From a virus: a DNA stretch of 47,190 bases. The position numbers and the translations under genes were made by a program. Below are positions 9,043 to 25,080 of this stretch, in pieces. The stretch covers positions 1 to 47,190 of the IMG/VR virus record IMGVR_UViG_3300042539_001117, one strand, 5' to 3'. Within the stretch, counting starts at the first letter, position 1; the number at the start of each line of letters is the position of its first letter. The notes under the pieces are model-generated. The model made no database searches. It saw only the letters and a program-made list of their open reading frames with translations, and had not been told where the DNA came from.

Positions 9043-9660
9043 TTATAATTTTGTAATTGTGTAAAAAGATGGTGTAGTAAATCTTTCTCCAGACTTAATT
9101 ACCTTGACACCATGTAGATAATTAATGTCACCAGGATGAGCTACTGCAAGCCCAGGTTCTGGCTTTACTTCAATGTCATGTTCAGGGTAATATAATTCGC
9201 CGCCCTCAAAATCATCATTATAATATATAAGTGAATTTAGATCATACGTAGGGAATGGGTTTGGTGATCCATCGTTTAGCTGTTTATCAGCATGTGGACG
9301 TTGCTCTATCCCAGGAAACCATCTTATTATAACTGGTGGTCTAACTGACAATTCAACATTAAAAGAATCTTCTAAAAAATATTTCATTTTTAATATATAT
9401 TTGTCAACAAGATTATAAATATCTAAATTTATCTTAGATAAGATCTCACCACTACACTGTCTATTCGACCAATAAGAGGCATCGTACGTGCACGTGCCGT
9501 CTTCTGAGTATTGATTTTCACCAGCATCCATCCACTGATTAATTGTTGGTAAAAAATCTTGTATAATTTTAAGGTCTTCTAAATCTACAAAGTTTTTTAT
9601 AATTTTTATATTGTCTTTCGAACTGCCAAAATGTCCTGGTTTTACTAAAGATTCTTCCAC
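9043..9660 (-). CDS. Fe(II)/2-oxoglutarate oxygenase, prolyl-hydroxylase type
   Basis: 205 residues and the only gene on the minus strand. The start is GTG at 9660-9658, preceded by AAAGGA at a six-base gap. The jelly-roll oxygenase core is clear. The HxD iron motif is RPHADK (H123, D125), then LIYYNDDFEGGELYYP (strand pair typical of prolyl 4-hydroxylases). The distal iron ligand is H183 in YLHGV, and R193 in GERF would bind the 2-oxoglutarate carboxylate. The reaction is hydroxylation of a protein or small-molecule carbon using O2 and 2-oxoglutarate. It converges on the proline-rich gene at 8545 and diverges from another oxygenase at 9732. The substrate is unknown. Confidence 0.85.
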   Translation of the reverse strand: MEESLVKPGHFGSSKDNIKIIKNFVDLEDLKIIQDFLPTINQWMDAGENQYSEDGTCTYDASYWSNRQCSGEILSKINLDIYNLVDKYILKMKYFLEDSFNVELSVRPPVIIRWFPGIEQRPHADKQLNDGSPNPFPTYDLNSLIYYNDDFEGGELYYPEHDIEVKPEPGLAVAHPGDINYLHGVKVIKSGERFTTPSFYTITKL

Positions 9661-9688
9661 TGGTTATCCTTTGCAAGCAAAAAGTTTA

Positions 9689-9702
9689 TGTGGTATAGTA
9701 TA
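9689..9702. promoter_or_regulatory. Divergent promoter, overlapping -10 boxes on both strands
   Basis: TGTGGTATAGT (9689-9699) is an extended -10 for the plus-strand operon starting at 9732, where GGAG precedes the ATG. The same near-palindrome GGTATAGTATATC gives TATACT on the minus strand (9702-9697), correctly placed for the gene starting at 9660. Two divergent oxygenase genes share this spot. Confidence 0.55.
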
Positions 9703-9731
9703 TCATTATCACTTATTGATTGGAGATTTAA

Positions 9732-10466
9732 ATGGAATTTTTTCATGTTGGCGCGTGTGCAGATAGTAAAGACAATGCTAAATTCGGCATCTATTTGTAC
9801 AGAAATGCTATTCCAAGAGAGTTAAATATTCCAGAAAGATTAGAAGAAGCAATAGGCGACAGCACGCACGAGTTGTTTAAGTGGTCAGAAGCGATGGTTG
9901 GCTATAACGTAAAAATGCCGGACTATAGAGATTGTGTAGACCTCAAAATGAGCCCAAGTCATTGGCAGTATTTAACTCCAGAATTTGAAGAAGTAAAAAA
10001 ATGCTACGAAGATGTAGAGACAAATTTAAAGAAATGCCTGACTCATTACGAATCTTTATATAATTTTAAGATGGATTATATGGAAGCTATAAACTTTGTT
10101 AGATATAAGCCGGGTCAACATTTTGCGGTGCACGCTGACCACGGTTTTTCATATACGTGTACATTGTCTTCGGTCATGTATTTAAATGATGATTATGAGG
10201 GTGGTGAATTGTGGTTTCCTTATCTCAATATAAACTTTAAACCACAAGCTGGGGATATAGTTTTGTTCCCTTCAACATATATATATGCGCATTCTTCATT
10301 GAAAGTAAAAAGCGGTGTTAAATATTCTGCTGTTACTATGTTTGATTATAACGACAATAACCACAAACATGGCATTGGCTATGGTGGTGACGGAAGCAAA
10401 ATAACAGAAAATGTTGGGATATCTAAAGCGGACAATGTTCCTTTAACATACCCAATGCCACAATAG
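9732..10466 (+). CDS. Prolyl-4-hydroxylase-like Fe(II)/2-oxoglutarate oxygenase
   Basis: 244 residues. The iron triad is H134/D136 in FAVHADHG and H187 in IYAHSS. The strand pair is VMYLNDDYEGGELWFPY, followed by KPQAGDIVLFPS. The 2-oxoglutarate anchor position is Lys (K197 in SGVKYSAV) rather than the Arg used by most neighbours. Lys is the residue used by animal collagen prolyl 4-hydroxylases. The C-terminal tail after residue ~205 is His/Gly/Asn-rich (NDNNHKHGIGYGGDG). It is the first gene of the plus-strand island operon and is followed after nine bases by a peroxidase-fold gene. The substrate is not known; the proline-rich or collagen-like virion proteins are candidates by context only. 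Confidence 0.87.
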   Translation: MEFFHVGACADSKDNAKFGIYLYRNAIPRELNIPERLEEAIGDSTHELFKWSEAMVGYNVKMPDYRDCVDLKMSPSHWQYLTPEFEEVKKCYEDVETNLKKCLTHYESLYNFKMDYMEAINFVRYKPGQHFAVHADHGFSYTCTLSSVMYLNDDYEGGELWFPYLNINFKPQAGDIVLFPSTYIYAHSSLKVKSGVKYSAVTMFDYNDNNHKHGIGYGGDGSKITENVGISKADNVPLTYPMPQ

Positions 10467-10475
10467 GAGGGCATT

Positions 10476-11099
10476 ATGGAGAATCAGCAAATAAACCCGT
10501 TGGAAATACCAACAGTTGAATACTATGATGAATCTATATATGATTTAAACCTAGAGTCTTTAGACGGAGAAGAAAACATCTTTGAAAAGAATAAAGGCAA
10601 AGTTACAATGCTCGTTAATGTTACCGGGGAATGTGCTAATTCCCCACAGTATGTAACTATACAAAATTTATATGATAAATATAAAGATTTGGGTTTTGAA
10701 GTGGTAGCGGTTCCAAGTACGGATTTTTGTGACCATGCATATGGAGATTTTAAGGACTCAAATGCAAGTCCAGAACTTATGCGTAGCCATATGAAGGAAT
10801 TGTATAAAACAGATTTACCATTTGCTAAAATGGCAGCAATTGTAGAAGATTCAGCAACAGGTTTGCCAGTTCATCCGTTCTATGAAAAGGTTCAAGAAAA
10901 TAAAGATCCTATTCAAGGTAATTTTGAAAAGTTTATTATTAGCAAAGATGGCAAAAAGGTAGTTAGATACTGCAACTCGGATCTGCTTGACCTTGCATAT
11001 AATTCAGGGAATAGAACGATTAATTCCGAAACAGCGTTGAAAAGTATTACTGAAACTATAGAGCATTTTCTTGGTGAATCAGATATAATAGTTGAATGA
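10476..11099 (+). CDS. Divergent glutathione-peroxidase-fold protein, Cys retained
   Basis: 207 residues, with GGAGG six bases before the ATG. After an acidic ~40-residue lead it shows the thioredoxin-like peroxidase fold: GKVTMLVNVTGEC, where C53 is the peroxidatic position of NVAS-x-C. Next are YDKYKDLGFEVVAVPSTDF and GNFEKFIISKDGK. In the usual Cys-Gln-Trp-Asn tetrad, Cys is kept, the CNQFG-x-QE segment with Gln is replaced by STDFCDHAYG, Trp becomes Gly148, and Asn149 is kept. Thiol peroxidase activity is possible but compromised; a redox-sensing, thiol-exchange or scaffold role is an alternative. A second, more decayed homologue lies at 20780. Confidence 0.7.
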   Translation: MENQQINPLEIPTVEYYDESIYDLNLESLDGEENIFEKNKGKVTMLVNVTGECANSPQYVTIQNLYDKYKDLGFEVVAVPSTDFCDHAYGDFKDSNASPELMRSHMKELYKTDLPFAKMAAIVEDSATGLPVHPFYEKVQENKDPIQGNFEKFIISKDGKKVVRYCNSDLLDLAYNSGNRTINSETALKSITETIEHFLGESDIIVE

Positions 11100-11800
11100 C
11101 TAAAGTTACCTTAACAAAGACAACTCAAGACGCACCAGAAATACGCCAGTCACGAATAAAGCGTGAGTGGATGGACAACACCTATAACAAGCATGCCTAC
11201 CAGTGTTTGCCTATGACGTATGCAAACGTTTATGGCTGGGAATTGATTCTGCCGCAAGATGTTGTCGCTCAGTGGGATGGTGGCAATACAGTGCCTAAGA
11301 TCCTTGAAGGGGCAGAGTACAAGGGTAGACAAATAGCTTACGGTGGAATCATTGGAATGGTTTCCTTTTCTACTGGATGGGCATTCGGCACTGAAGACGG
11401 TTATGAAACCTCAATTGGAGGTTCTCCAAATTACATGGTAGATGGAGCTTCTCCTTTGTCGGCAATAATACCGAGCAGCTGGTGGCCAGATGAATTCCAA
11501 ATGAATTGGATGATAAATAAAATTGGGGAACCAGTTGTCTTTGAAGCAGGAATGCCTTTTATGTTTTTTAATATTTTTGATAGCACAGTTACAAATAGCG
11601 TAGAATTCAAAGTAGAAAATTTGTGGGATAAACCAGAGCTAATGAACTCTAGGCAAAAATATGGCGATATGAAAATGAAAAATAATCAAGAAAATCCTTG
11701 GACATGGACAAAGGGAATAAGAACTGGCGTTGATGCAGACGGCAATAGAATTGGGCCAAGTTTTACTGGTCTACCAAAGTTAGATGAACCAAGTTTATGA
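11096..11800 (+). CDS. Uncharacterised protein, possible DUF6065 relative
   Basis: 234 residues, overlapping the preceding stop (ATGA). The protein is Trp-rich, with NVYGWELILPQDVVAQWDGG, then GIIGMVSFSTGWAF, then SSWWPDEFQMNWMINKIGEP and FEAGMPFMFFNIFDST, and a polar C-terminus. The combination of a W-E-(L/I)-x-x-P motif, a W-P-x-x-x-Q-M-N-W motif and a later F-x-F-(F/I)-N-I segment recalls the uncharacterised DUF6065 family. I assign that from memory and with low confidence. Those families commonly sit beside 2-oxoglutarate oxygenases and cupin-like proteins. No catalytic residues can be named. It is translationally coupled upstream to the peroxidase-like gene and downstream to cassette 1. 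Confidence 0.45.
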   Translation: MTKVTLTKTTQDAPEIRQSRIKREWMDNTYNKHAYQCLPMTYANVYGWELILPQDVVAQWDGGNTVPKILEGAEYKGRQIAYGGIIGMVSFSTGWAFGTEDGYETSIGGSPNYMVDGASPLSAIIPSSWWPDEFQMNWMINKIGEPVVFEAGMPFMFFNIFDSTVTNSVEFKVENLWDKPELMNSRQKYGDMKMKNNQENPWTWTKGIRTGVDADGNRIGPSFTGLPKLDEPSL

Positions 11801-11955
11801 ACGCAAAAGATAAAGCAATAATTTATTTAGATAACTCTATTAAGCATTTGTCTGAATTAATAAAAAAATCAAATTTTGATTCTTTAGTAAAAAACGCAGA
11901 ACAATCTTTGTTAAACCAAAAAAACGCTTTAAAGGAAATTAAAGATGGAGCCTAG
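11797..11955 (+). CDS. Cassette 1, gene a: 52-residue helical protein
   Basis: A short gene starting inside the stop of the previous gene (TTTATGA). It encodes 52 residues, MNAKDKAIIYLDNSIKHLSE and onwards, ending ALKEIKDGA. It is predicted as one or two amphipathic helices rich in Lys, Leu and Asn. It resembles the 69-residue product at 19061 (D-(K/Q)-A-x-x-(Y/F)-L-(D/E)-x-SI-x-x-LS-x-L). Both are the first gene of the same four-gene cassette, which makes it very likely a real gene despite its size. Function unknown. Confidence 0.7.
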   Translation: MNAKDKAIIYLDNSIKHLSELIKKSNFDSLVKNAEQSLLNQKNALKEIKDGA

Positions 11956-12151
11956 ACAAATCAGTGAAGAATTAATACATGAATTTACGGAAACGATGGA
12001 CGATGCTATCCCTGTTTATTCTGATGAAGATCAAAATATCATAATGCCAAATGGCGGGACAACAAGGGAGTATGTTTTGACTGAAGCATTTGCTGAAATG
12101 AATAAGTATGTAATACTCCCACTATCTCCATCTGTGGATGATCTAATATGA
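11945..12151 (+). CDS. Cassette 1, gene b: small acidic protein
   Basis: 68 residues, with the start 11 bases inside the end of gene a and AAGGA/AAAGATGGAG context upstream. It is strongly acidic in its first half (EELIHEFTETMDDAIPVYSD) with EDQNIIMPNGG and a C-terminal ILPLSPSVDDLI. No family is recognised. The small protein in the same position of cassette 2 (19273) shares size and acidity but no clear sequence similarity. Its last codon overlaps the ATG of gene c (ATATGA). Confidence 0.65.
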   Translation: MEPRQISEELIHEFTETMDDAIPVYSDEDQNIIMPNGGTTREYVLTEAFAEMNKYVILPLSPSVDDLI

Positions 12152-12447
12152 AAACCTACAATGCGGAAAAAGACTTAGAATATATTAATGAGCAATTATA
12201 TTTATATTTATATATAATTGGTTTAAATCCTAAAAATATTGACGAGTATTCAATAGACCAAATAATAAATTCTGCAAGAAATATATCAATAGCTCCTATA
12301 AGCGAAGTTGAGTCAGGCTCTATGGATCTTTCAAATGATCCTCTTTATTTATTTTTAAAAAACCAAAGAATATCTTTAATTGGAAACATTAGAAGAATTT
12401 GGTACATGCGACAGTTAGCAATTGGAGCAATCAAAAATGCAGTATGA
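12148..12447 (+). CDS. Cassette 1, gene c: 99-residue RRxW protein
   Basis: 99 residues, starting at the ATGA overlap with gene b. Landmarks are KDLEYINEQL, YLYIIGLN, SIDQIINSARN and the C-terminal NQRISLIGNIRRIWYMRQL. It aligns over its full length with the 93-residue product at 19460 (DLE, IG, ID-x-(I/V)-IN, RN, (K)-x-Q-x-I-x-L, RR-x-W). The pair defines a small family I do not recognise. It is probably helical and cytoplasmic, with no membrane segment. Its coding end overlaps the start of the methyltransferase-like gene d. Confidence 0.68.
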   Translation: MKTYNAEKDLEYINEQLYLYLYIIGLNPKNIDEYSIDQIINSARNISIAPISEVESGSMDLSNDPLYLFLKNQRISLIGNIRRIWYMRQLAIGAIKNAV

Positions 12448-13135
12448 AGTAGATTATTTTGATAATTTAGTTAAATTAATAAAATACAATGATATCGAAT
12501 CAGTTGAAGATTCTATATCAAAAAGTAAAATAATAAATGAATACTTAGAGGCTTTTTCTATAGATAAAAGAAAAATAGCTGCTGGTATGGATTTTATGAT
12601 TTGGTATTTTGATGTCTTTAGTAAAGAAAGTCATTTTTGGAATGTCAATCCTGCCTACTTCTATGCGGCTAATACGCATGAATTTGGTTTTCTAACAGCT
12701 AATCCAAAAACTTCACTAATGACACTCCCGGCTTTTAATACTGGTTTAGCGAGATTAATGGAGAAGAAATCAAAGCTTTCTTTATTAAATAACTATCAGC
12801 TACATTTATTTGAGCACTATATAGGTGATGAACCGTGGTCTTACGACACTGTTACAATGCAGGATGTACAATCTGGCAATGGTGGCTACTATGATTTCAT
12901 ATGTATGAGCATTCATGACGTTATCCATGATCCAGATTTAGTTATAGATTTTTTTAATTTATTAAACAAAAATGGAACAATGATGATGCTATATACTGGC
13001 ACTGATCAGCTTTATAAAAATGGATCAATATATACTGATTTTTATGAAGTTCACAGAAATTTAATTAATATTAAAAATTCATGCGTTTATCATAACCCTA
13101 CAGGAGCAGCTGTTACTTATGCAGTTAGTTTATAA
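12437..13135 (+). CDS. Cassette 1, gene d: degenerate methyltransferase-like protein
   Basis: 232 residues. ATG 12437 is preferred to an upstream TTG because GGAG sits eight bases before it. The N-terminal helix region includes INEYLEAFSIDKRKIAAG. The C-terminal half has YDTVTMQDVQSGNGG, YYDFICMSIHD, then FFNLLNKNGTMMMLY, an order like strands 4-5 of a class I SAM methyltransferase. A Gly-rich SAM-binding motif I is not visible. It is homologous to the 246-residue product at 19731, sharing (V/I)D(R/K)R(N/K)IA(T/A)G, a final YH-x-P segment and overall layout. It may be an inactive or strongly diverged methyltransferase. Function unknown. Confidence 0.6.
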   Translation: MQYEVDYFDNLVKLIKYNDIESVEDSISKSKIINEYLEAFSIDKRKIAAGMDFMIWYFDVFSKESHFWNVNPAYFYAANTHEFGFLTANPKTSLMTLPAFNTGLARLMEKKSKLSLLNNYQLHLFEHYIGDEPWSYDTVTMQDVQSGNGGYYDFICMSIHDVIHDPDLVIDFFNLLNKNGTMMMLYTGTDQLYKNGSIYTDFYEVHRNLINIKNSCVYHNPTGAAVTYAVSL

Positions 13136-13138
13136 AAG

Positions 13139-13816
13139 ATGATTATTATAGATGATTTCATAAAAGATAAAAATTTATTAGAAGAAATAGAGTTAACTCC
13201 AAATTTCTTTCCAGAATCAATGGGCGACGAAGAAAAAATAGCTACAGTTTTAAATGGTTATCACGATGGACAATGTGATTGTTTTGCGCCGTATATGTTT
13301 TGGGATGGTTGGTTAAAATCTGAGGCAGATACTCCAAGAAAAAGATTAATTAAAAAAATATGGGAGAACAATCTTCCATTTCCAGTAGAAGACGTTTGCG
13401 GTTTTGAGTATTGGACTAGAACTTTTAAGCCTGGACAATTTCTTGATACTCATGTAGATGAAGATACATTTCTTTACGCAGATAAAAAAATATTTAGAGG
13501 ACCAAGAATAGGTTGTGTATATTATCCGCACACCAATGATGTGGTTGGTGGATTTTTAGAGATGCATCCTACAGCTATTTCAGAAGATACAGCTAACGCT
13601 TTAGAGAAAGAAAATATAGATCATTTAATAGTTCCAGTAGAGTTAAGAGAGAGAATATCTTGTAAGCCAAATAGGCTAATAATTTTTGACGCTGGACATG
13701 TCATACATAACACGACTCCACCGATTAAAGGTGTTAGAAGAGTTGTGGTGGTAAATGTGTGGCATAAAGATAACCCACCATCAGCTTTAAAAACTGGTGA
13801 ATTTTATTATGAATGA
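13139..13816 (+). CDS. Fe(II)/2-oxoglutarate oxygenase
   Basis: 225 residues, starting three bases after the previous stop. The N-terminus reads MIIIDDFIKDKNLLEEIE, the usual opening of phage-type oxygenases. The HxD is in FLDTHVDEDT (H105, D107). The distal His is H187 or H190 in FDAGHVIHNTTPP, followed by GVRRVVVVNVW with R200 or R201 as the 2-oxoglutarate anchor. Between them is an insertion (residues ~140-175) that is absent from the short neighbours and could shape substrate entry. It follows cassette 1 and overlaps the start region of the next oxygenase, so the two are probably co-translated. Substrate unknown. Confidence 0.82.
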   Translation: MIIIDDFIKDKNLLEEIELTPNFFPESMGDEEKIATVLNGYHDGQCDCFAPYMFWDGWLKSEADTPRKRLIKKIWENNLPFPVEDVCGFEYWTRTFKPGQFLDTHVDEDTFLYADKKIFRGPRIGCVYYPHTNDVVGGFLEMHPTAISEDTANALEKENIDHLIVPVELRERISCKPNRLIIFDAGHVIHNTTPPIKGVRRVVVVNVWHKDNPPSALKTGEFYYE

Positions 13817-14405
13817 AAAAATTGATTTATTTACATTAAGTATATGTAAAACTTTTTTACAAAACATTGACAATGATAAGTTGTTGAAGGAAATAGAAAA
13901 ATTTGACACAACACCAAATGTAAAAGATCCATCACCGGCTCATACTTTTTACGAAGATAAGCTTTATCCTTTTGGTCAACCAGAATCAATGAAGTTAATT
14001 GATGAAATAACTAATTCTGTCAATCATTTTACTAACTCAGATATGGTTATGGATTCTATTTGGACTATAACTCTAGAAAAAGGCCAGTCTGTTTTAAGCC
14101 ACACGCACAAGGTAAACACTCAGCTTTATCCAGAAGAATATTATTCTGTTTCATACTATGTAAGCGCACCAGAAGATAGCGCAGATTTAATATTTGTTAC
14201 CACACACTGTAATACAATAGAGAGAGCAACTTCAGTTAAAACAGAGACAGGAATGTTGTTGATATTTAACTCTTATATTCCCCATATGACAAATAGGCAA
14301 TATTCGGAAGAAAAAAGAGTTGTCGTAAGTGCAAACTTTAGTCCTAAAACACCGAACACTAACCCTACCGCAGATTGGTCGGAATATAGGGTGCCAAATA
14401 GGTAA
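13809..14405 (+). CDS. 2OG-Fe(II) oxygenase-like protein with HxH motif
   Basis: 198 residues from ATG 13809; a GTG at 13797 would add four residues, but GGTGA is better spaced for 13809. The core is SIWTITLEKGQSVLSHTHK, YYSVSYYVSAPEDSADLIFV, then ETGMLLIFNSYIPHMTNR and EEKRVVVSANFSP. Iron-ligand candidates are H98 and H100 (HTH instead of HxD) and H159, with R170 as the 2-oxoglutarate anchor. This pattern matches the PF13759 type (2OG-FeII_Oxy_5), where the H-x-H form is usual. It is the last gene before a promoter at 14435, so it ends the first island operon. Activity is likely but unproven; a non-catalytic cupin is the alternative. Confidence 0.75.
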   Translation: MNEKIDLFTLSICKTFLQNIDNDKLLKEIEKFDTTPNVKDPSPAHTFYEDKLYPFGQPESMKLIDEITNSVNHFTNSDMVMDSIWTITLEKGQSVLSHTHKVNTQLYPEEYYSVSYYVSAPEDSADLIFVTTHCNTIERATSVKTETGMLLIFNSYIPHMTNRQYSEEKRVVVSANFSPKTPNTNPTADWSEYRVPNR

Positions 14406-14434
14406 AGAAATAAGTTTTTAAATACTACTATTAT

Positions 14435-14445: not shown

Positions 14446-14465
14446 TATTATTTAGGGAGATTTTT

Positions 14466-15575
14466 ATGACTGTAACAAAAGAAACTTACAAAGAATTCAT
14501 AGGCAATATAAAGATTAATGACATAGAGCCTATCATCAATGCCCCAGAAGTGGATTTTGCTGCGGTTGACCATGTTGTCAAAACTAATTTTGATATAATG
14601 TTTACTTGGGATTATTCTTTAGCTCGCACACAATTAAGAAAGCTTTACGAAAAAGCTAAAAATAATCAATGGAATGGAGAAACTGCATTAGACTGGTCTA
14701 CTCCTGTTGATATAGAAAAGTCTGTAGCTGAAGACTATGCAAATTTTGGATCGACTAGAGAGATGTCAGTCTATGAGGGTAGCCCTATAGAAAATTGGGG
14801 CGATAAAGAATGGCTGCAATTTGGCTTAGAAAGCAGAAGGTGGATGATCTCACAGTTCATACACGGAGAGCAAGGTGCTCTGATTTGTTCTGCAAAACTA
14901 ACACAAACATGTCCATGGTACGATGGCAAACTTTTTGCTGCAACACAAGTTGTAGATGAAGCTCGACATGTTGAAGTTTTTGCAAAGTATACTAATGAAA
15001 AATTGGGTGGAACACTTCCTTTTAACTGGCATATCCAAGGCTTGGTTGACGATACTATTGCCGACAATCGTTGGGATATAACCTATCTAGGAATGCAGAT
15101 TATGGTTGAGGGGCTCGGCCTTGCATCGATGGCGTATATGCGTGAATTAACAAATGAACCGTTGTTGAAGCAATTGTTGCGTAATGTTATGGCTGACGAA
15201 GCGCGTCATGTTTCATTTGGTATTATCTCACTCAAGGAGATCTATGCGGAAATGACCGATTCAGAGATTATGGAGCGTCAGCAGCTTGCCTATGAAGCTA
15301 GCATAAAGCTTGGGGAGCGAATGCTGCAACAAGAGGTATACGAAAAGATGGGTGTTAAGACAAAAGACATTGCCCCGTTCTTATTGAACGATCCAGCACA
15401 GGCTTGGATTAGAAAGATGCTTGCGGCTAAGATTGTCCCAAACCTTAGCAAGCTAGGGTTGCTAGATAGAAACGGTGCTTGGTTGCGTAGAAAATTTGAA
15501 GAAATGGGAACAATAGAATTTGAAAACCTTGGAGATTCTGAAGAGGAGTTTTCAGCTTTTATACATAGTTACTAA
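14466..15575 (+). CDS. Ferritin-like di-iron carboxylate protein
   Basis: 369 residues. A four-helix di-iron site is complete in sequence: E135 in FIHGEQGAL, D-E-A-R-H at 164-168 (E165, H168), E215 in QIMVEGLGLA, and a second D-E-A-R-H at 244-248 (E245, H248). This is the (E...ExxH)x2 pattern of the ribonucleotide-reductase R2-like and ferritin-like superfamily. No ribonucleotide reductase large subunit is visible and the length and spacing are not those of R2. An oxidase, N-oxygenase or desaturase-type enzyme is therefore more likely. It is the first gene of an operon with a methyltransferase, a TauD-like oxygenase and a glycosyltransferase, which suggests small-molecule or glycan tailoring. 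Codon and GC use looks a little richer than its neighbours in the 3' half. Confidence 0.82.
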   Translation: MTVTKETYKEFIGNIKINDIEPIINAPEVDFAAVDHVVKTNFDIMFTWDYSLARTQLRKLYEKAKNNQWNGETALDWSTPVDIEKSVAEDYANFGSTREMSVYEGSPIENWGDKEWLQFGLESRRWMISQFIHGEQGALICSAKLTQTCPWYDGKLFAATQVVDEARHVEVFAKYTNEKLGGTLPFNWHIQGLVDDTIADNRWDITYLGMQIMVEGLGLASMAYMRELTNEPLLKQLLRNVMADEARHVSFGIISLKEIYAEMTDSEIMERQQLAYEASIKLGERMLQQEVYEKMGVKTKDIAPFLLNDPAQAWIRKMLAAKIVPNLSKLGLLDRNGAWLRRKFEEMGTIEFENLGDSEEEFSAFIHSY

Positions 15576-15577
15576 TT

Positions 15578-16243
15578 ATGAAAACACCTAATGATTATAA
15601 TGTAGATAGAGTTTATTCCTATGAAAGCTCTGAAGATCTAAAGAGATATTATAATGATTGGGCGGATGAATATGATAGTTATGCAAAAGACGTAAACTAC
15701 ATCTTGCCAGAAAAAGTATCCGAAGTATTTTTTAAGTACGTTTCTAATAGTAATTATAGTGAAACAAAAAAAAATAGCATATTAGACATAGGTTGTGGTA
15801 CCGGATTATTGGGTGAAAGCCTGTCTTTTATTGATGATAATCTTTGGATTGAGGGCGTTGATATATCTTCTTCAATGATAAGGATAGCTTCTTTAAAGAG
15901 AAGAAAAAATTTTTTACCTGTATATGATTGGATGATGGTAGACGATCTGACTAGCCCAAAGTTAATGCTAGAAAGTTATTATGATTACTTTATAAGTTCT
16001 GGAACATTTACTCTTGGTCATCTTGGTTCTAGTGATTTAATTAATTTATTAATTTATTTAAAATCACAAGGTATAGCAGTTATATCAATAAAAGAAGATC
16101 ATTTTATTCATGATAACTTTAAAGAAATTTTTGTAGAATTAGAAAAAAACAAAACAATACAAGATATAATGTATTACAAGGTGAACTCTTACGAATCAAA
16201 TTTTAAAGCAGATTCAATAATTGTAAAGTTTAAAAAAGTTTAA
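15578..16243 (+). CDS. Class I SAM-dependent methyltransferase
   Basis: 221 residues, starting two bases after the preceding stop. Motif I is ILDIGCGTGLLGESL (residues 68-82), the acidic end of strand 2 is IEGVDISSSMIRIA (residues 91-104), and motif III/IV region is WMMVDDLTSP. Then YDYFISSGTFTLGHLG and GIAVISIKEDHF follow the expected strands 4 and 5. The N-terminal YYNDWADEYDSYAKDV is typical of small-molecule methyltransferases of the UbiE/COQ5-like type, though the substrate is unknown. Its place in the operon with ferritin-like, TauD-like and GT32-like genes suggests one tailoring pathway. Confidence 0.83.
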   Translation: MKTPNDYNVDRVYSYESSEDLKRYYNDWADEYDSYAKDVNYILPEKVSEVFFKYVSNSNYSETKKNSILDIGCGTGLLGESLSFIDDNLWIEGVDISSSMIRIASLKRRKNFLPVYDWMMVDDLTSPKLMLESYYDYFISSGTFTLGHLGSSDLINLLIYLKSQGIAVISIKEDHFIHDNFKEIFVELEKNKTIQDIMYYKVNSYESNFKADSIIVKFKKV

Positions 16244-18266: not shown

Positions 18267-19027
18267 AGGTGGAAAGAATGTATAAGCCGAGAATAATTGT
18301 ATTTACCGATTTTCTACCAAAGGAAGATTGGGAAGTTGTAGATAAGTATTGTAGAGATAATAAAGAAAAATTTCCATATGTCGGTTACGGTTCTCCGGTT
18401 AGATGGAAGATAGAGGAGCATTCTAAAAATCCAGATATTAAATATATTCGTTCTTTTTTAATTTCAGAAGAAGAATATGATCTATATATGAAGGGTGAAA
18501 TACCGGAGCCTTATCCAAACGATACAAAGCATGGCGACAACTATGTGATGTCGGTAGAAGAGATCCAAAAGGTTGAGGAAGAGCCACCTGTAACTGCACT
18601 CATGCACCATTCTAAATGGCCAAATAGCTTACTGCAAAATAAAACATTTGACATTATAAGCGGTTACCTGTCTGGTGTCGTAAGTATAGTAAAAGAAGTA
18701 TATGGTGAAGATTGTTTCAGTGAAAGTGGCCCTTGGATAGCGGTAGCTAGAGAAGGTGGCTATATGAATATGCACTGTGACGGAACGTTTATACATAACA
18801 GGGACGCCATTACACAGTATTCTAGCGTGTATTACATCAATGACGATTACGAGGGCGGCGAATTCAATATGCCGCTGATGGGCTTTAAGCTTAAACCTAA
18901 AGCAAATTCGCTTCTTATTTTTACCCATTCTTCCCATGAAGATATGGCGCATGAGGTAACACCAGTTTTATCTGGTGATCGTTTTGTTTCACAAGGATTT
19001 TTTGCCATTACAAAAACCAATAGCTGA
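18263..19027 (+). CDS. Fe(II)/2-oxoglutarate oxygenase, prolyl-hydroxylase type
   Basis: 254 residues from the overlapping ATG 18263; an in-frame ATG at 18278 is an alternative start. The first 130 residues form a long helical lead including a Glu-rich segment (SVEEIQKVEEEPPV). The core has MNMHCDGTFIH (H171, D173), VYYINDDYEGGEFNMP, KPKANSLLIF, then EDMAHEVTPVLSGDRF with distal H230 and R240. It is closest in style to the genes at 9732 and 21397. The last gene before the promoter at 19028, it ends the second island operon. Substrate unknown. Confidence 0.86.
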   Translation: MKVERMYKPRIIVFTDFLPKEDWEVVDKYCRDNKEKFPYVGYGSPVRWKIEEHSKNPDIKYIRSFLISEEEYDLYMKGEIPEPYPNDTKHGDNYVMSVEEIQKVEEEPPVTALMHHSKWPNSLLQNKTFDIISGYLSGVVSIVKEVYGEDCFSESGPWIAVAREGGYMNMHCDGTFIHNRDAITQYSSVYYINDDYEGGEFNMPLMGFKLKPKANSLLIFTHSSHEDMAHEVTPVLSGDRFVSQGFFAITKTNS

Positions 19028-19060: not shown

Positions 19061-19270
19061 ATGCAACTCAATAATTACGATTCACAAAAAGCTAAAGATC
19101 AAGCTAAATCTTTCTTGGAAAAATCAATACAGACTTTAAGTTTGCTGCTGGATGTAAACTATGAAAATTTAAATAAAGATTCAAAAAATCCATTTAGCGA
19201 AAGCCTTCCTCAGCACAACGCATTTAATTGTCTTATAGATGAGATAGTTTCTTATAGGAAAATAGTTTAA
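19061..19270 (+). CDS. Cassette 2, gene a: 69-residue helical protein
   Basis: 69 residues with a strong AAAGGAGA site. The segment DQAKSFLEKSIQTLSLLLD aligns with DKAIIYLDNSIKHLSELIK of the 52-residue product at 11797. The cassette 2 version has an extra middle region and ends in ECLIDEI-like FNCLIDEIVSYRKIV. It is predicted as mostly helical. It is the first gene of cassette 2 and directly follows an extended -10 promoter. No family is recognised. Shared position and sequence with cassette 1 are the evidence that it is functional. Confidence 0.68.
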   Translation: MQLNNYDSQKAKDQAKSFLEKSIQTLSLLLDVNYENLNKDSKNPFSESLPQHNAFNCLIDEIVSYRKIV

Positions 19271-19272: not shown

Positions 19273-19467
19273 ATGAGTAGTATAGGTGAGCCAAATAGTT
19301 TTGGAATGGAAACAAGACAAGGGGAATCTATAACTGATACCCCAGACTGGGACAACGAAATTATAGAGTGGGACTCTGCGACTGGGATATATTATGTTGC
19401 CGGCAAACCGGTCAGCATGTGTCAAGGTGTTGCAATGTTTAAGGAAGAAAAAAAAGAAGATGAATAA
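19273..19467 (+). CDS. Cassette 2, gene b: small acidic protein
   Basis: 64 residues, beginning two bases after gene a. It is rich in Glu, Asp and Trp (TPDWDNEIIEWDSATGIYYV), then AGKPVSMCQGVAMF, and ends in a mixed charged tail KEEKKEDE. It matches cassette 1 gene b in size, acidity and position, but no residue pattern is shared that I can defend. The final codons overlap the ATG of gene c at 19460. Confidence 0.62.
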   Translation: MSSIGEPNSFGMETRQGESITDTPDWDNEIIEWDSATGIYYVAGKPVSMCQGVAMFKEEKKEDE

Positions 19468-19741
19468 GTATAGGCCGCTAGAAGATCTGGAGCACCGTTC
19501 CCAACACTTGGCATCTTTTTTGTTTATTCTTGGAATTGATGAAGATGATTTTGAATCTACCAAAATAGATGATGTTATAAATCTTATTAGGAATAGATAC
19601 GTGTACAAACACAGCCATCCAGATTACAATATAGCGGTTCAAGAATACGTTAAAAAACAAAGTATTGTTTTAAATAGGGGAGTTAGAAGAGCTTGGTTTG
19701 ATGTGCAAGTTGCTTCGTACGAGGTGCAAAATGTCGGGTGA
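19460..19741 (+). CDS. Cassette 2, gene c: 93-residue RRxW protein
   Basis: 93 residues from ATG 19460, inside the end of gene b; a longer frame from 19394 would overlap more of gene b and has no support. Landmarks are LEDLEHRSQHLASFLFILG, KIDDVINLIRN, KKQSIVLNRGVRRAWF. These align along the whole length with the product of 12148. The conserved core is DLE, (I)(L/I)G, ID-x-(V/I)-IN, RN, Q-x-I-x-L and RR-x-W. The family is unknown to me. It overlaps the next gene by 11 bases. Confidence 0.68.
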   Translation: MNKYRPLEDLEHRSQHLASFLFILGIDEDDFESTKIDDVINLIRNRYVYKHSHPDYNIAVQEYVKKQSIVLNRGVRRAWFDVQVASYEVQNVG

Positions 19742-20471
19742 TAAAAAGTATGAACCACAGTTATCTTTTGATTTTACTAGCTGGGAATATGATTGGCGAT
19801 CATATGCTAATGAGTCTACGAAAAAAGATGGACCAGAGTCAGTAGCAATTTCTGATTATTTATTTAATACAGTTGGTGTAGATAGAAGAAATATAGCTAC
19901 TGGCGGGGCCAGTGATTATGAATTTGTTATACATTACCCAAGACCAAATTTAGCTGACTCATACGGTCAATCTCAGTGGATGCCGATACTATTAATTCAG
20001 ATGCTAATGGATATTAGTAGAGGCAAGAATATACTGGCATTGTCGGGGGGGCTAGATAGATTTAGATTGAAGCCTTTTCAGGATATCTACGGGTCTAATA
20101 TATATATGTTGAATAATAAAAAAACAGCAATGTATGAAAAGTTCCAAAAAGAAAATACTCCAATAGAATATGATGTTGTTAGCCATCAGGATCTAGAAAA
20201 AGACAATTGCAATAATTATATGTTTGATATGATTGTGGGATGGTCACAGGACATGGAGAATCCCTTTGTGCCTGTACATTTTTATCTTGATAGATTAAAT
20301 ACAGGTGGGATTCTAGTGATCCAAAATTCATCAGATAGCATTTTTCTTTACCAAAATGATACTCAGGCATCTCCTGTTTGGGAGTATCACAATGAGATAA
20401 AGTCAAGAAAAGACTGCAACATGTATCACATACCTTTGTTTTATGGGGTTACAGTTGTCATTAAACAATAA
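19731..20471 (+). CDS. Cassette 2, gene d: degenerate methyltransferase-like protein
   Basis: 246 residues from ATG 19731; GAGGTG lies four bases upstream, which favours this start over the upstream TTG at 19698. Visible: VGVDRRNIATGGASDYEFV, a nucleotide-binding-like loop GKNILALSGGLDRF, YGSNIYMLNNKKTAMYEKF (where a methyltransferase carries its SAM-ribose acidic residue), then YDVVSHQDLEKDN, FDMIVGWSQD and LDRLNTGGILVIQN. The order is that of a class I methyltransferase with poor motif I. It is the homologue of 12437, and better preserved. Whether it binds SAM is open. Confidence 0.62.
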   Translation: MSGDKKYEPQLSFDFTSWEYDWRSYANESTKKDGPESVAISDYLFNTVGVDRRNIATGGASDYEFVIHYPRPNLADSYGQSQWMPILLIQMLMDISRGKNILALSGGLDRFRLKPFQDIYGSNIYMLNNKKTAMYEKFQKENTPIEYDVVSHQDLEKDNCNNYMFDMIVGWSQDMENPFVPVHFYLDRLNTGGILVIQNSSDSIFLYQNDTQASPVWEYHNEIKSRKDCNMYHIPLFYGVTVVIKQ

Positions 20472-20473
20472 TA

Positions 20474-20484: not shown

Positions 20485-20490
20485 TGTTTT

Positions 20491-20787
20491 ATGATTACTA
20501 AATGGAAAGCAACAGTGGTTAATCCACTTGGAACAGAAAAATACAGTGTAAACCTGGACAGTACGGATGACTTAGCCACCGCTACGGCGTCAAGCGAAAA
20601 GGGTACCGTGCAGTTTGTGCAAACACAAAGCCTAAGTCCTCTATTCGCCGCAAACATAGAAGCTCCAATGAAAACAAGATTAGAGCTAGAATTTAGCACC
20701 AATGATTTTACCTCAAAAGATATGTCAGCTGTTTTAAGGGTAGGAGATTTTTCTAGTATGAAAGTAGATTTGGTTAGATATGAATAA
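20491..20787 (+). CDS. Uncharacterised 98-residue protein
   Basis: First gene after the promoter at 20474. It encodes MITKWKATVVNPLGTEKYSV and a beta-rich, Ser/Thr-rich body with GTVQFVQTQSLSPL and APMKTRLELEFSTNDF, and ends MKVDLVRYE. It has no Cys or His and no catalytic pattern, so it may be a small beta-barrel or a binding protein. Family not recognised. It overlaps the peroxidase-fold gene at 20780 by eight bases, suggesting coupling. Confidence 0.6.
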   Translation: MITKWKATVVNPLGTEKYSVNLDSTDDLATATASSEKGTVQFVQTQSLSPLFAANIEAPMKTRLELEFSTNDFTSKDMSAVLRVGDFSSMKVDLVRYE

Positions 20788-21400
20788 TTCAGCATACGAT
20801 ATTGAGCTATTGTCAATCGACGGCTCATATGACATTATGGGGTCAATGAAGGGCAAATTAACTCTTGTAACAAATATAGCTTCAAAATTAGGCTATGATC
20901 CTAAGTGTAGTGTAACTTTTTCTTACGCAAGAACTTGTAAATATTTATGGGAACTTGAATTCATTTATCAAAAATATAAAGATCAAGGCTTTAGCGTCGT
21001 TGGTATACCATGTAATCAATTTGGGAAACAAGAGCCAAAAGAGAATAACGAAATAGAAGCTTTTATCAAAGAAGCTTATCCTTTTGTAAGTTTTCCTATT
21101 TCTCAAAAAATAGAAGTTAACGGCAAAAATGAACATCCGCTTTATTCTTTTTTAAAGGGACCAGAAAAAAGAGGATATTCAGACACTACCGCAGACAGCA
21201 GCGATGCAGCTATTGAAGGACAGAATTTAGTTGGTCAGGCAATAGCAAGAATTCCACATAGCTACGAAAAGTTCTTATTAAGCCCTCAAGGAATGTTTAT
21301 TACTAGATTTAATTGGCAAGATGGACCACTAGATGAGGAGCCTAGAGTTATGGGCGCTGGTTGGACCATTATGGAAGCGATAGAGGAGATGCTAGGATGA
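20780..21400 (+). CDS. Glutathione-peroxidase-like protein with altered active site
   Basis: 206 residues. The fold is clear: GKLTLVTNIASKLGYDPKC, FIYQKYKDQGFSVVGIPCNQ, FGKQEPKENNEIEAF, YSFLKG and YEKFLLSPQGM. Active-site positions: the peroxidatic Cys/Sec of NVAS-x-(C/U)-G is Leu37; the Gln of FG-x-QE is kept (Q84); the Trp-Asn of WNFEKF are His160 and Ser161. An extra ~12-residue insertion carries C43 and C53, and C78 is in the CNQ motif. So the classical reaction is unlikely unless an inserted Cys substitutes. Contrast the product of 10476, which keeps Cys and Asn. It is followed by four tandem oxygenases starting inside its stop codon. Confidence 0.8.
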   Translation: MNNSAYDIELLSIDGSYDIMGSMKGKLTLVTNIASKLGYDPKCSVTFSYARTCKYLWELEFIYQKYKDQGFSVVGIPCNQFGKQEPKENNEIEAFIKEAYPFVSFPISQKIEVNGKNEHPLYSFLKGPEKRGYSDTTADSSDAAIEGQNLVGQAIARIPHSYEKFLLSPQGMFITRFNWQDGPLDEEPRVMGAGWTIMEAIEEMLG

Positions 21401-22494
21401 GCTACAATATAGAGTCAGAAAATTCCCAAATTAGAGATGTAGCGTTCCCCTCTAGCCCGCCCCTCAATGAGGACACCGTAAAGGAAATATCCACAATTGA
21501 ATGCGAAATCCTTGGCCCAGGTGTCGTGGTTTTTAGGAACGCTTTTCAGATAGATCAGGACGCAGTGCTAACGCATATTGATTCCAATGCAGAAGAAGCG
21601 CATAAAACCCGATGGGAATATGTTGAGGTTGATGGCGTAAAAATGGGCATCAATGAAGACGGCTTTAGGTATAGGATGGAAGACGTACCAGCAGCACCGA
21701 TAAGATTGCTTGACCCGGTAAATGAATCTACGCCTAAAGAAGTAGAAGAGTTTCTATACACTTTGGAAGACCAAATATACAAGTGTCTGATAAAGTACAT
21801 AGACCACTACCCCCTGATGCTTGGTAGCATATGGTGGAAGACAAGAGGCCATATATTGCGCTATGGAGATGGTGGAAGACTTGGTTGTCACGCAGATAAT
21901 GATACTAATTATAAGGTGACAAAAGGCGTTAGGTATATGCCAAAGGGTATGGTCGCATCAAGACAAACATGCGGTGCTTTAATTTACCTAAATGATTGCG
22001 TAGATTCTGAAGAAGAATTAAATGGAAGAAATTTTACAGGCGGACATCTTAGGTTTGTTCATTTGGGAATTTCTTATAAGCCAAGAAAAGGTGACATAAT
22101 ATTCTTCCCAACAAATTACGTCGCGTCCCACGATGTAGAAACTATGGGTAAGGGTGTTAGATATAGTTATTTAACTTTTTTTGGTCAAGGCGCAAATGAT
22201 AAGAGCGCAAATATTATGATAGTTGAACCAGATGAAAGTTTCCAATGGTGTCCTCCTGTTTGGTTAAATAATATATATGATGATTACGAAATGTATTGCA
22301 AATCTCCATATTCTATTTTTTCTGATCCAGGAAAAAACAATGTAGAAGTTGGTTGGAACCCAGTTTACCAAGGAAGAGAAGTCGCACAGTACAGCGCATC
22401 ACACGATGCGGTTGAGGTTGAAGAAGCTAAAGCTGATACTGTATCCGAAGATCTACCAGAAGGACCATGCGGTACTGAAGCTGTAAGAATCTAA
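21397..22494 (+). CDS. Tandem oxygenase array copy 1 (Fe(II)/2-oxoglutarate)
   Basis: 365 residues from the ATG overlapping the previous stop (ATGA). Core: SIWWKTRGHILRYGDGG, then LGCHADND (H165, D167), ALIYLNDCVDSEEELNG, FTGGHLRFVH, KGDIIFFPTNYVASHDV (distal H245) and GVRYSYLTFFG (R255). It is the longest of the four copies, with a ~70-residue C-terminal acidic extension (DAVEVEEAKADTVSEDLPEG) that the others lack in this form. The N-terminal ~130 residues contain the shared VVVFRNAFQIDQDAV and WEYVEVDG region. A hydroxylase of protein or peptide is inferred; the substrate is unknown. Confidence 0.86.
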   Translation: MSYNIESENSQIRDVAFPSSPPLNEDTVKEISTIECEILGPGVVVFRNAFQIDQDAVLTHIDSNAEEAHKTRWEYVEVDGVKMGINEDGFRYRMEDVPAAPIRLLDPVNESTPKEVEEFLYTLEDQIYKCLIKYIDHYPLMLGSIWWKTRGHILRYGDGGRLGCHADNDTNYKVTKGVRYMPKGMVASRQTCGALIYLNDCVDSEEELNGRNFTGGHLRFVHLGISYKPRKGDIIFFPTNYVASHDVETMGKGVRYSYLTFFGQGANDKSANIMIVEPDESFQWCPPVWLNNIYDDYEMYCKSPYSIFSDPGKNNVEVGWNPVYQGREVAQYSASHDAVEVEEAKADTVSEDLPEGPCGTEAVRI

Positions 22495-22498
22495 TATT

Positions 22499-23413
22499 AT
22501 GAAAATAGAAAAATTAGGAACTGGAATTGTCCTATTCCAAAATGTTATCAACATGGAAGAATACCCTGAGATAATACCTTTCATAAAATCATTAAAGCAA
22601 AAGGCAGTAGAAGAAGATTATACGATAATTAAAAATGAACGCAATGAAAGTGTATATGCCATAAATAGAAGTGGGCATAGATATGCAATAGAGGATATAG
22701 AAAAAAGCTCTAGCCACATTATGAATTTTTTAGATAATAATGATTCTGATAAAATAGAATTGTTTTTTATTGAATGCGAAAGAGCTTTTAGGCAGTGCCT
22801 TCTTCAATACCTTGAGATATATCCGATGGCTCTTCCAAGTATATGGTGGAGAACTCAGGGGCATATATTAGCATATGGCCCAGGGAGCGACATGGGTCTC
22901 CATAGTGACAATGATGTTAACTACCAGCCTGGATTTGAACCAGATCTTCAAGTGGCGACTAGAAGTGTTTTGGGGTCTATCTTGTATTTTAATACATCTG
23001 TAGATTCAAAAGAAGAGATTATAAAAGATGAATATCTTGGCGGACATATAGTGTTCCCGTATTGTGATGTTGATTATTCTCCAAAAGCAGGAGATTTACT
23101 AATGTTTCCATCTAACTTCATTGCCTCACACGAGGTTAAGGAATGTTATGAAGGTGGAAGATATGCCTATATTGGTTATTATTCTCATGGTTCGGAGCAT
23201 ATAGAAAGAGGCATACAATTAATTAATGGGGATCTACCTGTTGGAAAACAGGGTCAAATATGGATGCCAGAGATAGTTGAAGAATATAAAGAATATATAT
23301 ACAATAAATACCCTGATAAGCCTGAAGATTTTTATGGCGATTTGCTCCAGGCAACCAAAAGAATGTATAATAGCGCTAATACACTAAAGGAAGTAAACCA
23401 TGAAATTCAATGA
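22499..23413 (+). CDS. Tandem oxygenase array copy 2 (Fe(II)/2-oxoglutarate)
   Basis: 304 residues, four bases after copy 1. Core: SIWWRTQGHILAYGPGSDMG, then LHSDND (H135, D137), ILYFNTSVDSKEEI, LGGHIVFPY, AGDLLMFPSNFIASHEV (H211) and GGRYAYIGYYSHGSEH (R221). The N-terminal region begins KLGTGIVLFQNVINMEEY, paralogous to copies 1, 3 and 4. The C-terminal region has WMPEIVEEYKEYIYNKYPD, which is shared with copy 3 (NLYMPTLVSDYRSYLLS). It overlaps copy 3 by 14 bases (start of copy 3 at 23400), a strong sign of co-translation. All metal and cofactor residues are intact. Confidence 0.86.
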   Translation: MKIEKLGTGIVLFQNVINMEEYPEIIPFIKSLKQKAVEEDYTIIKNERNESVYAINRSGHRYAIEDIEKSSSHIMNFLDNNDSDKIELFFIECERAFRQCLLQYLEIYPMALPSIWWRTQGHILAYGPGSDMGLHSDNDVNYQPGFEPDLQVATRSVLGSILYFNTSVDSKEEIIKDEYLGGHIVFPYCDVDYSPKAGDLLMFPSNFIASHEVKECYEGGRYAYIGYYSHGSEHIERGIQLINGDLPVGKQGQIWMPEIVEEYKEYIYNKYPDKPEDFYGDLLQATKRMYNSANTLKEVNHEIQ

Positions 23414-24281
23414 CGTTGATGCAAAGCATCTGGGTGGCGGTGTAGTTTTATTTGAATCAGCAATCGATATTGATTGGGATTACATTAGAGGGTTTAGTAG
23501 AGACGCTATTAATAAAGAAAAAGAAGAAATGTATGTCCCCGCTGTAGATCCAGAAACCGGCGATGAAATCTACCTTAATAAAAGTGGGTACTTTTTTGGC
23601 AAAGATAGTATTGACCAAATGCCAGGAAGAGGATCAGCGATACATAGATATAGTGACGAAAAAATAAAAGAAATATTTGATTTTGTAGAAGAATCAAAAG
23701 ATAAGTATTTGCTCAAGTATTTTGAACTATTCCCTTTGGCATTTAAATGCGTATGGTGGAAGGTTAAGGGACACATAGTTCAGTACAAAAAGGATGTTTA
23801 TTTGGGCAGCCATTCCGATGTTAGTGCAGATTACATATATGACGTTTGGACACCTAAAGACCAACTCGCGACTAGAAATACAATAAGCAATGTATTCTAC
23901 CTAACCTCTTGCGTTGACACTGTAGAGGAGTTAGATGGCACAAATTTTGTTGGAGGCCATCATTATTTTAATTATTTAGATATAAATGTAAAACCAAAAA
24001 AAGGTGATCTATTGATGTTCCCTTCTAATTTTATGGCAGCACATGAAGTCAAGCCAGTAGAGGATGGGGAAAGATACTCTTATCTTGGCTGGTACAGCCA
24101 TGGAACCCCAAATAGTGAGGTTGGGGAATCAGTTGTTGACCCAGGAAAAGAGCTAGAACTAGCAAAAAATGCCACCAACCTCTACATGCCTACCCTGGTT
24201 TCTGACTATAGAAGCTACCTTTTATCAAAGGGCTATGATGAATCGTCCGAGCAGTTTATGTTAACAAGATCGAATTATTAA
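23400..24281 (+). CDS. Tandem oxygenase array copy 3 (Fe(II)/2-oxoglutarate)
   Basis: 293 residues; the start lies 14 bases inside copy 2 with AAAGGAAG upstream. Core: VWWKVKGHIVQYKKDVYLG, SHSDVSADY (H138, D140), VFYLTSCVDTVEELDG, FVGGHHYFNYL, KKGDLLMFPSNFMAAHEV (H215) and GERYSYLGWYSHGT (R225). The opening KHLGGGVVLFESAIDIDWDY matches the shared N-terminal unit. The C-terminal segment NLYMPTLVSDYRSYLLSKG parallels copy 2. The catalytic set is complete, so loss of function is not evident. Divergence lies mostly in the loop after HxD and in the N-terminal lid, the regions expected to pick the substrate. Confidence 0.86.
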   Translation: MKFNDVDAKHLGGGVVLFESAIDIDWDYIRGFSRDAINKEKEEMYVPAVDPETGDEIYLNKSGYFFGKDSIDQMPGRGSAIHRYSDEKIKEIFDFVEESKDKYLLKYFELFPLAFKCVWWKVKGHIVQYKKDVYLGSHSDVSADYIYDVWTPKDQLATRNTISNVFYLTSCVDTVEELDGTNFVGGHHYFNYLDINVKPKKGDLLMFPSNFMAAHEVKPVEDGERYSYLGWYSHGTPNSEVGESVVDPGKELELAKNATNLYMPTLVSDYRSYLLSKGYDESSEQFMLTRSNY

Positions 24282-24282
24282 T

Positions 24283-25080
24283 ATGTTAAAAAAAGATTTT
24301 AAAATAGAAGATAAAGGTTCCGGGCTATGTGTAATGACAAACGCATTTGATATTGATCAAGACATGCTTTTTGAATATATAAACTGGCTTAAACAGGAAG
24401 AGGAAGACACCTTTACTTATTTGGAAGAAAATGGCAAAAAGTACGCTATTAACAGAACTGGTTTTAAGTTTGATTTATCAGAAGTAAGAGAGGCGCCAGA
24501 AAGATTCGTTGATCCGCTATGCAGAATGTCGAGCAGAAAGCCAACCGCCGAACAATGCAAATTAATATATGATTTAGAGGATTTAATTTACGAGGCTTTG
24601 GTTGAATACGTAAAGATATATGACGTAGCTGCAACAGTTTGTTGGTGGAGAAGCCCTGGTCACATAGCTACTTATTCGGACGGTCAAAAAATTGGTCCTC
24701 ATTGTGATGATCAAATTCCATGGGAATATGGTGTAGCTCCAAGAAATGAGTATCCAAAGCACAGTAAGGTAAGTATAAACATATACTTAAATGATGGCGT
24801 GGATTCTGAGGAAGAATTAAATGGAAGAAATTTCTTGGGCGGAGACATAATATTTAAATACGCGAAGTATAGACATAAGCCAAAAACTGGTAGTATAACT
24901 ATATATCCAACTAACTATGTTGGCACACACGAGGTTGAATCAGTTACCGCTGGGAAAAGAATAGCCTACCTTGGAGCACTTCTTTATGGGACTCCGGCTA
25001 ATGCTAGCCCCGTTCCAGAGGTTGGAGAAGAGAGAATATGGCTACAAAATCTAAGAAAAGATGCTGGGCTAATGCATTAA
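24283..25080 (+). CDS. Tandem oxygenase array copy 4 (Fe(II)/2-oxoglutarate)
   Basis: 265 residues, the shortest copy, one base after copy 3. Core: VCWWRSPGHIATYSDGQ, GPHCDDQIP (H140, D142), INIYLNDGVDSEEELNG, FLGGDIIFKYAKYRHKP, GSITIYPTNYVGTHEVES (H216) and GKRIAYLGALLYG (R226). The motif YLND-x-VDSEEELNGRNF is almost identical to copy 1, so copies 1 and 4 may be the closest pair in that region. There is no C-terminal extension. It is the last gene of the island. A non-oxygenase small gene at 25126 follows. Confidence 0.85.
   Translation: MLKKDFKIEDKGSGLCVMTNAFDIDQDMLFEYINWLKQEEEDTFTYLEENGKKYAINRTGFKFDLSEVREAPERFVDPLCRMSSRKPTAEQCKLIYDLEDLIYEALVEYVKIYDVAATVCWWRSPGHIATYSDGQKIGPHCDDQIPWEYGVAPRNEYPKHSKVSINIYLNDGVDSEEELNGRNFLGGDIIFKYAKYRHKPKTGSITIYPTNYVGTHEVESVTAGKRIAYLGALLYGTPANASPVPEVGEERIWLQNLRKDAGLMH

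Follow-up and report, generated by a model that had tools for sequence, protein, structure and literature searches.

What do the Fe(II)/2-oxoglutarate (2OG) oxygenases of a phage act upon when ten of them lie within 16 kb of its genome? The question is raised by IMG/VR virus record IMGVR_UViG_3300042539_001117 of an uncultured freshwater phage, the 47,190 bases of which (the window, i.e., the whole stretch of DNA analysed) hold an oxygenase island flanked by tail-fibre genes on its left and by a block of tail sheath and further structural genes on its right. Such enzymes have been on record in phages for a long time with no known substrate (PMC3037559, PMC9602691). Comparison with related sequences makes it probable, in our opinion, that the island is a post-translational tailoring cassette and that it acts on the (Pro-Pro-[Phe/Tyr]-Phe)n tail of the protein encoded at 8545–8983. 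The first-pass annotation had called the island unusually dense; related records have up to 12 PF13640 matches each. Up to five 2OG-Fe(II) genes per cyanophage were documented by Sullivan et al. 2010 (PMC3037559), but cyanophage S-SCSM1 has 24 of them (PMC9602691), seven within 9 kb among tail-fibre genes. Therefore, oxygenase number alone is not new, and rarity by count was set aside as the principal claim. What is new is the partner gene with its specific repeat.

The repeat gene and the conserved cassette

The repeat gene lies just outside the borders drawn earlier around the island, and both this likely substrate and its frame change had been missed. Its zero frame covers 8545–8604 and its +1 frame 8606–8983; a product of 145 residues is obtained if C8605 is skipped (MAQDDGKKQ...PTIAA, then GVADSTANTTITAAGF...(PP[FY]F)n...PPVFK and stop). 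Tandem-repeat analysis revealed the same repeat type at the cassette edge in other contigs. Its in-frame translation is (PP[FY]F)n, in most cases closed by PPxFK-stop, and it is carried by fibre-like proteins with differing N-terminal parts, which are FN3 domains in contigs G001 and G025. A collection of 151 distinct arrays shows the unit PP[F/Y/H/W]F in 99.5%. The free variation of synonymous codons among these arrays fits selection on the protein. A second gene of this repeat (FFPP) type, with its own frame break, was observed at 41204–41581 of contig G005, ~8 kb 5′ of the cassette.

Relatives of the cassette were collected with the oxygenase 23400 (island genes are named here by their start positions; 40 loci), with the AurF-like protein (36 loci) and with the DUF6065 protein, which has relatives in 488 IMG/VR stretches, 80 of them kept for analysis. 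In large contigs the gene order of the cassette is conserved with fibre genes adjoining, and loci of at least 17 kb fetched by DUF6065 hold 6–14 oxygenases of the cassette families, typically in 9.7–16 kb. PF13640 matches per related record extend from 12 down to 0 (G007 and G019, both fetched by the AurF-like gene). Mis-assembly was rejected, as the island recurs in independent IMG/VR contigs, including a near-identical one of 111 kb (L047/G005); there and in L048, L049 and L078 the island genes are found at about 100% identity. The sheath block of the window was not found in the sequence covered of G001, G008, G021 (60 of 69 kb), G022 and G025, of which G008, G022 and G025 are fragments; therefore, the cassette is probably not confined to a single genome background. 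A cellular origin was also rejected, since the sole two genome matches are contigs of metagenome-assembled genomes with fibre genes, probably viral, which carry a version of the cassette (DUF6065 identity 58–59%). Across 50,697 phage records, DUF6065 gave zero matches.

The association of cassette and repeat was tested in both directions. For the forward test, loci had to extend 6 kb or more beyond DUF6065 in both directions; 44 did so, representing 35 distinct contigs when counted by hand. An automatic search placed a repeat within 6 kb of DUF6065 in 41 of them (40 PPxF, one FFxPPG). For the remaining three, a three-unit array was seen by eye in L153, the array of L192 is 6.1 kb away, and L152 has the same gene scores as L153, the one of the two that was read. 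A repeat is thereby found near the cassette in 35 of 35 distinct contigs with enough flanking sequence. For the reverse test, 118 new loci were fetched solely by the DNA pattern of the repeat, and among the matches listed, to which the counts of this test and its controls refer, 83 had at least one cassette-type oxygenase and 54 had three or more. When at least 5 kb was available downstream, an oxygenase was found within 5 kb in 42 of 48 repeat loci. When clustered, the nearest oxygenases of the repeat loci fall into 36 groups at a 70% identity threshold, or 14 at 50%. Two other repeats served as controls. Collagen-like repeats had oxygenases in 7/120 loci (mean GC 0.51 vs. 0.39), and GNVT fibre repeats in 3/118, with three or more in none and with 2/76 for the low-GC loci. 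The corresponding Fisher p-values, 5e-27 (collagen-like) and 7e-31 (GNVT), are not literal because the loci are related. The collagen-like repeat as cassette partner was rejected on these 7/120 loci and because the unit here is PP[FY]F, not Gly-X-Y.

The enzyme set also varies with the repeat. In ten loci, all from one clade, the unit is FFxPPG; these loci are without two glutathione peroxidase (GPx)-fold genes (gpx10476, gpx20780) and three oxygenase genes (ox21361, ox22499, ox24283), the rest of the cassette being retained. Several independent events of co-variation were rejected as an explanation, since one clade is one evolutionary event.

In the common version of the repeat gene whose linker looks PASTA-like by eye but has no match in Pfam, a basic N-terminal peptide and the repeat lie in different frames, the latter at +1, and dropping the C of C-GGA fuses the two. 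The zero-frame junction codon is CGG in 35 of 35 distinct sequences, and a stop closes that frame 2–22 codons on. These sequences were picked by the length of the repeat frame and a Gly as its third residue, irrespective of CGG. The usage of CGG is 0.0 per thousand among 10,822 codons in the long open reading frames (ORFs) of the window and does not exceed 0.2 per thousand in G003, G005, G009, G010 and G014. Unshifted homologs in G003 and in marine L137 read straight through. The junction pattern fits programmed +1 frameshifting at a slowly read codon; an internal start reaching the repeat frame is possible in its place.

The ten oxygenases

Pfam and PHROGs profile searches bore out all ten ORFs that had been listed as Fe(II)/2OG oxygenases, two of which were given with internal ATGs (13809 and 21397) and may also begin at 13797 and 21361. 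Six are above the PF13640 cut-off (9732, 18263, 21361, 22499, 23400 and 24283), 13797 passes PF13759 and 16248 passes TauD. The weak PF13640 matches of 9043(−) and 13139, 21.2 and 22.6 bits vs. a cut-off of 27, are accompanied by matches to 2OG-type PHROGs families. The iron site and Arg/Lys anchor, earlier described as visible in all ten, are conserved in diverged orthologs of nine. HxD, the distal His and then Arg/Lys are kept in eight families (alignments of 18–35 orthologs, minimum identity 34–51%), and in 13797 HxH replaces HxD and is kept across 24 sequences. The iron/2OG residues are present in 16248 too; their conservation is hardly probed because this protein has only three close orthologs.

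The AlphaFold model of 23400, with a predicted local distance difference test score (pLDDT) of 86, suggests a prolyl-hydroxylase/PiuC-type fold. Foldseek ranked PiuC-type proteins first and also returned the PBCV-1 collagen prolyl hydroxylase (5c5t), a Chlamydomonas prolyl 4-hydroxylase (P4H; 3gze) and bacterial P4H, and there was no sequence match in the PDB. The double-stranded beta-helix is seen in a model for 23400 only, the other nine being placed by sequence family. The profile of 9732 matches a bacterial P4H (3itq, E 4e-8) and that of 9043 matches prolyl 3-hydroxylase 1 (8k0e, E 1.5e-6). By profile and model, the three oxygenases sampled (9732, 9043 and 23400) resemble prolyl hydroxylases or PiuC most closely.

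The repeat as substrate and the alternatives

As the repeat lies near the oxygenase block in every comparable relative, the enzymes probably hydroxylate it. The prolyl-hydroxylase-like enzymes would hydroxylate the repeat prolines, and other cassette enzymes may modify the aromatic residues or, alternatively, may build on the new hydroxyl groups together with the glycosyltransferase and methyltransferase. The unmodified repeat, half Phe or Tyr, should be very hydrophobic, and hydroxylation could aid its solubility. The modified arms would be exposed at the tail, forming an adhesive or shielded tip; in this version of the gene they would be made only by ribosomes shifting +1 at the rare CGG, so that the shift would set the dose of the arm. 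We propose the joint reading tentatively, with somewhat less than even confidence: a hyper-hydroxylated and decorated proline/aromatic fibre tip is made by the oxygenase cassette, its dose is set by +1 frameshifting at a rare codon, and by analogy the tip might act like hydroxyproline-rich or mussel adhesive proteins. The first-pass annotation had proposed a dedicated tailoring system, perhaps for virion adhesins. Genomics upholds this part, with a conserved syntenic cassette in more than one genome background and tied to one fibre repeat, but the chemistry and the virion location we infer. No description of prolyl hydroxylation of phage fibres was found in the literature searched.

Several observations weigh against the repeat as substrate. 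The oxygenase hidden Markov models were built from the cassette and find four of seven unrelated cyanophage 2OG genes, which favours the FFPP set over the controls; therefore, the control counts may be roughly half the true value, with the contrast unchanged. Relatives do not count as independent cases, and FFxPPG comes from a single clade. In the stretch L434 (3971 bases), DUF6065, ox9732 and a pair of ox9043-like genes adjoin a fibre whose GPT repeats are collagen-like, and the stretch contains no FFPP gene, making it a possible exception. No oxygenase accompanies the canonical repeats of L247 and L332 in the stretch covered. P4H-like sequence is also common in PF13640 enzymes with other roles, PiuC being the top Foldseek match, and the dUTPase-like fold of DUF6065 lacks a place in the tailoring scheme.

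The targets of the oxygenases might instead be sugars of the host surface, lipids or a small molecule, the repeat gene being simply adjacent in a variable fibre region. The region is indeed variable, some relatives have sugar genes, and AurF-like, TauD and methyltransferase genes are characteristic of small-molecule pathways. Nevertheless, adjacency alone cannot explain a two-way tie across many lineages, and neither the contrast with the other fibre repeat (3/118) nor the smaller enzyme set alongside the changed repeat is explained, which renders this alternative unlikely. A role in auxiliary metabolism, with effects on host 2-oxoglutarate level, iron uptake or stress responses, was proposed for cyanophage 2OG genes (PMC3037559) and for PiuC-like viral enzymes (PMC13184970), and PiuC is among the top matches of 23400. 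A single enzyme would suffice for such a role, however, and here 6–14 distinct ones are kept in order beside a fibre repeat, so that we give it very little credence. Modification of nucleic acids or nucleotides, with DUF6065 as a dUTPase relative (its model has 49 dUTPase matches at E ≤ 0.001), is the least probable of the three, as the island has no DNA-methyltransferase or TET/JBP match, the cassette is located among tail genes, and the dUTPase motifs are not clearly retained by eye.

Modification of a fibre repeat has partial parallels in known systems. The T4-like cyanophages of the S-SCSM1 type likewise have several 2OG genes amid tail-fibre genes; they differ in that no FFPP repeat occurs in the S-SCSM1 stretch examined, DUF6065 is in none of the phage records, and the window's tail sheath and the terminase of G005 are closest to Moorella and Bacillus phages, not cyanophages (the terminase to Moorella phage MTATph1, 37%). 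PBCV-1 vCPH (5c5t) is a viral P4H-fold 2OG enzyme near 23400 with a viral repeat protein as proposed substrate, and the mimivirus collagen enzymes are also virus-encoded hydroxylases with virus-encoded repeat proteins. In contrast to both, the present system belongs to a tailed phage, the unit is PP[FY]F and not Gly-X-Y, and 6–14 oxygenases are joined by DUF6065, GPx-fold and di-iron proteins. Pro- and Tyr-rich repeats are modified by 2OG enzymes in hydroxyproline-rich wall proteins of algae and plants, by P4H, and in mussel adhesive proteins, and the Chlamydomonas P4H with (Ser-Pro)5 (3gze) is among the top Foldseek matches of 23400. Here, a phage genome has its own clustered enzymes, and the likeness need not reflect a common origin. 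Clusters for ribosomally synthesised and post-translationally modified peptides (RiPPs) place a gene-encoded repetitive substrate beside several modifying enzymes, and some cassette relatives share with them a radical S-adenosylmethionine (SAM)-SPASM protein; they differ in that no leader peptidase or exporter was recognised here and the substrate is fibre-like and within a tail-gene cluster.

A conserved cassette with a specific candidate substrate makes the question testable with a short peptide. The occurrence of the DUF6065 marker in 488 IMG/VR stretches indicates that the system is common in aquatic phages, though it is missing from the 50,697 phage records. If the repeat is the substrate, phages equip their tails with chemically modified arms, virion chemistry has a layer that escapes sequence annotation, and the DNA pattern of the repeat is a simple handle for locating such systems.

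Other genes and features

Table 1. Features of the window.
Position	Strand	Feature	Evidence
6507..8543	+	tail-fibre gene, directly 5′ of repeat gene	phrog_8745 E 1.3e-35
8545..8983	+	fibre-tip-like gene with proline/aromatic repeat, probable substrate	frames, homologs
8605..8608	+	C-GGA at putative +1 frameshift (CGG in zero frame)	35/35 sequences, codon usage
8777..8970	+	12-bp tandem repeat, 16.2 copies, coding PPFF/PPYF	tandem-repeat analysis
8994..9019	no strand	hairpin with A/T flanks, between two convergent genes	read by eye
9043..9660	−	2OG oxygenase, prolyl-3/4-hydroxylase-like	Pfam/PHROGs, ortholog alignment, profile
9732..10466	+	2OG oxygenase, prolyl-4-hydroxylase-like	PF13640 48 bits, profile
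10476..11099	+	GPx-fold protein	Cys53 retained, usual Gln position altered
11096..11800	+	DUF6065 protein	PF19541 145 bits; predicted dUTPase-like fold
11945..12151	+	small conserved protein, 68 residues	relatives, ortholog alignment
12148..12447	+	small protein, by eye like 19394–19741	ORF, relatives, alignment
12422..13135	+	conserved protein, methyltransferase-like by eye, resembles 19698–20471	relatives, alignment
13139..13816	+	2OG oxygenase	weak PF13640, PHROGs, ortholog alignment
13797..14405	+	2OG oxygenase, PF13759 type with HxH	Pfam, PHROGs, ortholog alignment
14466..15575	+	AurF-like di-iron oxygenase	PF11583 30.6 bits, just above cut-off
15578..16243	+	SAM methyltransferase, travels with AurF-like gene	Pfam, relatives
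16248..17144	+	TauD-type 2OG oxygenase	PF02668 28.1 bits
17146..17880	+	glycosyltransferase (DXD sugar-binding type)	PF04488 49.5 bits
17898..18266	+	small conserved protein	relatives, alignment
18263..19027	+	2OG oxygenase	PF13640 42.3 bits, ortholog alignment
19061..19270	+	small conserved protein	relatives, alignment
19394..19741	+	small protein of repeated gene pair	relatives, alignment
19698..20471	+	methyltransferase-like (by eye), second copy in repeated gene pair	relatives, alignment
20491..20787	+	small conserved protein	relatives, alignment
20780..21400	+	GPx-fold protein	PF00255 95.6 bits, alignment
21361..22494	+	2OG oxygenase, four-gene run	Pfam, ortholog alignment
22499..23413	+	2OG oxygenase, four-gene run	Pfam, ortholog alignment
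23400..24281	+	2OG oxygenase, four-gene run	Pfam, ortholog alignment, model like PiuC and viral/algal/bacterial prolyl hydroxylases
24283..25080	+	2OG oxygenase, four-gene run	Pfam, ortholog alignment
29476..30789	+	tail sheath, structural block right of island	phrog_16991 E 1e-21

The Pfam family of the DUF6065 protein (Table 1) has no assigned function, yet its model (pLDDT 78) is dUTPase-like, with a best Foldseek E of 4.6e-5 and a template modelling (TM) score of about 0.4 on the query and up to 0.7 on the target; the catalytic motifs were compared by eye only. DUF6065 was not named in the literature searched. An ordinary GPx function was rejected for both 10476 and 20780, as their active-site residues are altered relative to the canonical GPx Cys/Gln motif. 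In 20780 the usual peroxidatic Cys is replaced in most orthologs, with an insert in its place, and Cys43 is invariant in 18 aligned sequences. GPx matches in several short "phage" records (e.g., OR849339.1) resemble host DNA contamination.

The AurF-like protein has EARH repeats, and E135, E165, H168, E215, E245 and H248 are kept in 23 sequences (minimum identity 73%). Its profile matches to di-iron proteins are weak, and a ferritin-like fold is predicted from its sequence. The gene pair 12148/12422 occurs again as 19394/19698; no match was found for 12422 in Pfam or PHROGs, nor for 19698 in Pfam or among phage records.

Sister cassettes also hold sugar-making and sugar-transfer genes, radical SAM-SPASM and additional TauD genes. 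The near-identical cassette of G005 has a radical SAM-type gene at 58535–59557 (L103 18535–19557), between the glycosyltransferase gene and the 17898 homolog, which is missing from the window; the assignment to the radical SAM family with SPASM was made on its L050 relative. G001 has a small unit of its own at 33300–37300, ~100 kb from the main cassette, composed of two weak oxygenase matches, the AurF-like gene and the methyltransferase gene that goes with it.

The hairpin at 8994–9019, probably a two-way terminator to judge from its sequence, was not called by the terminator scan; the Rfam search gave no match and the tRNA search found none. The fibre gene 1209–4097 has a brief collagen-like stretch at 2301–2335 (GPAGDTGPAGPTGPEGPTG). 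Finally, a secreted-protein motif at 152312–153439 of G003, which we take to be typical of freshwater Actinobacteria, provides a weak hint of the host.

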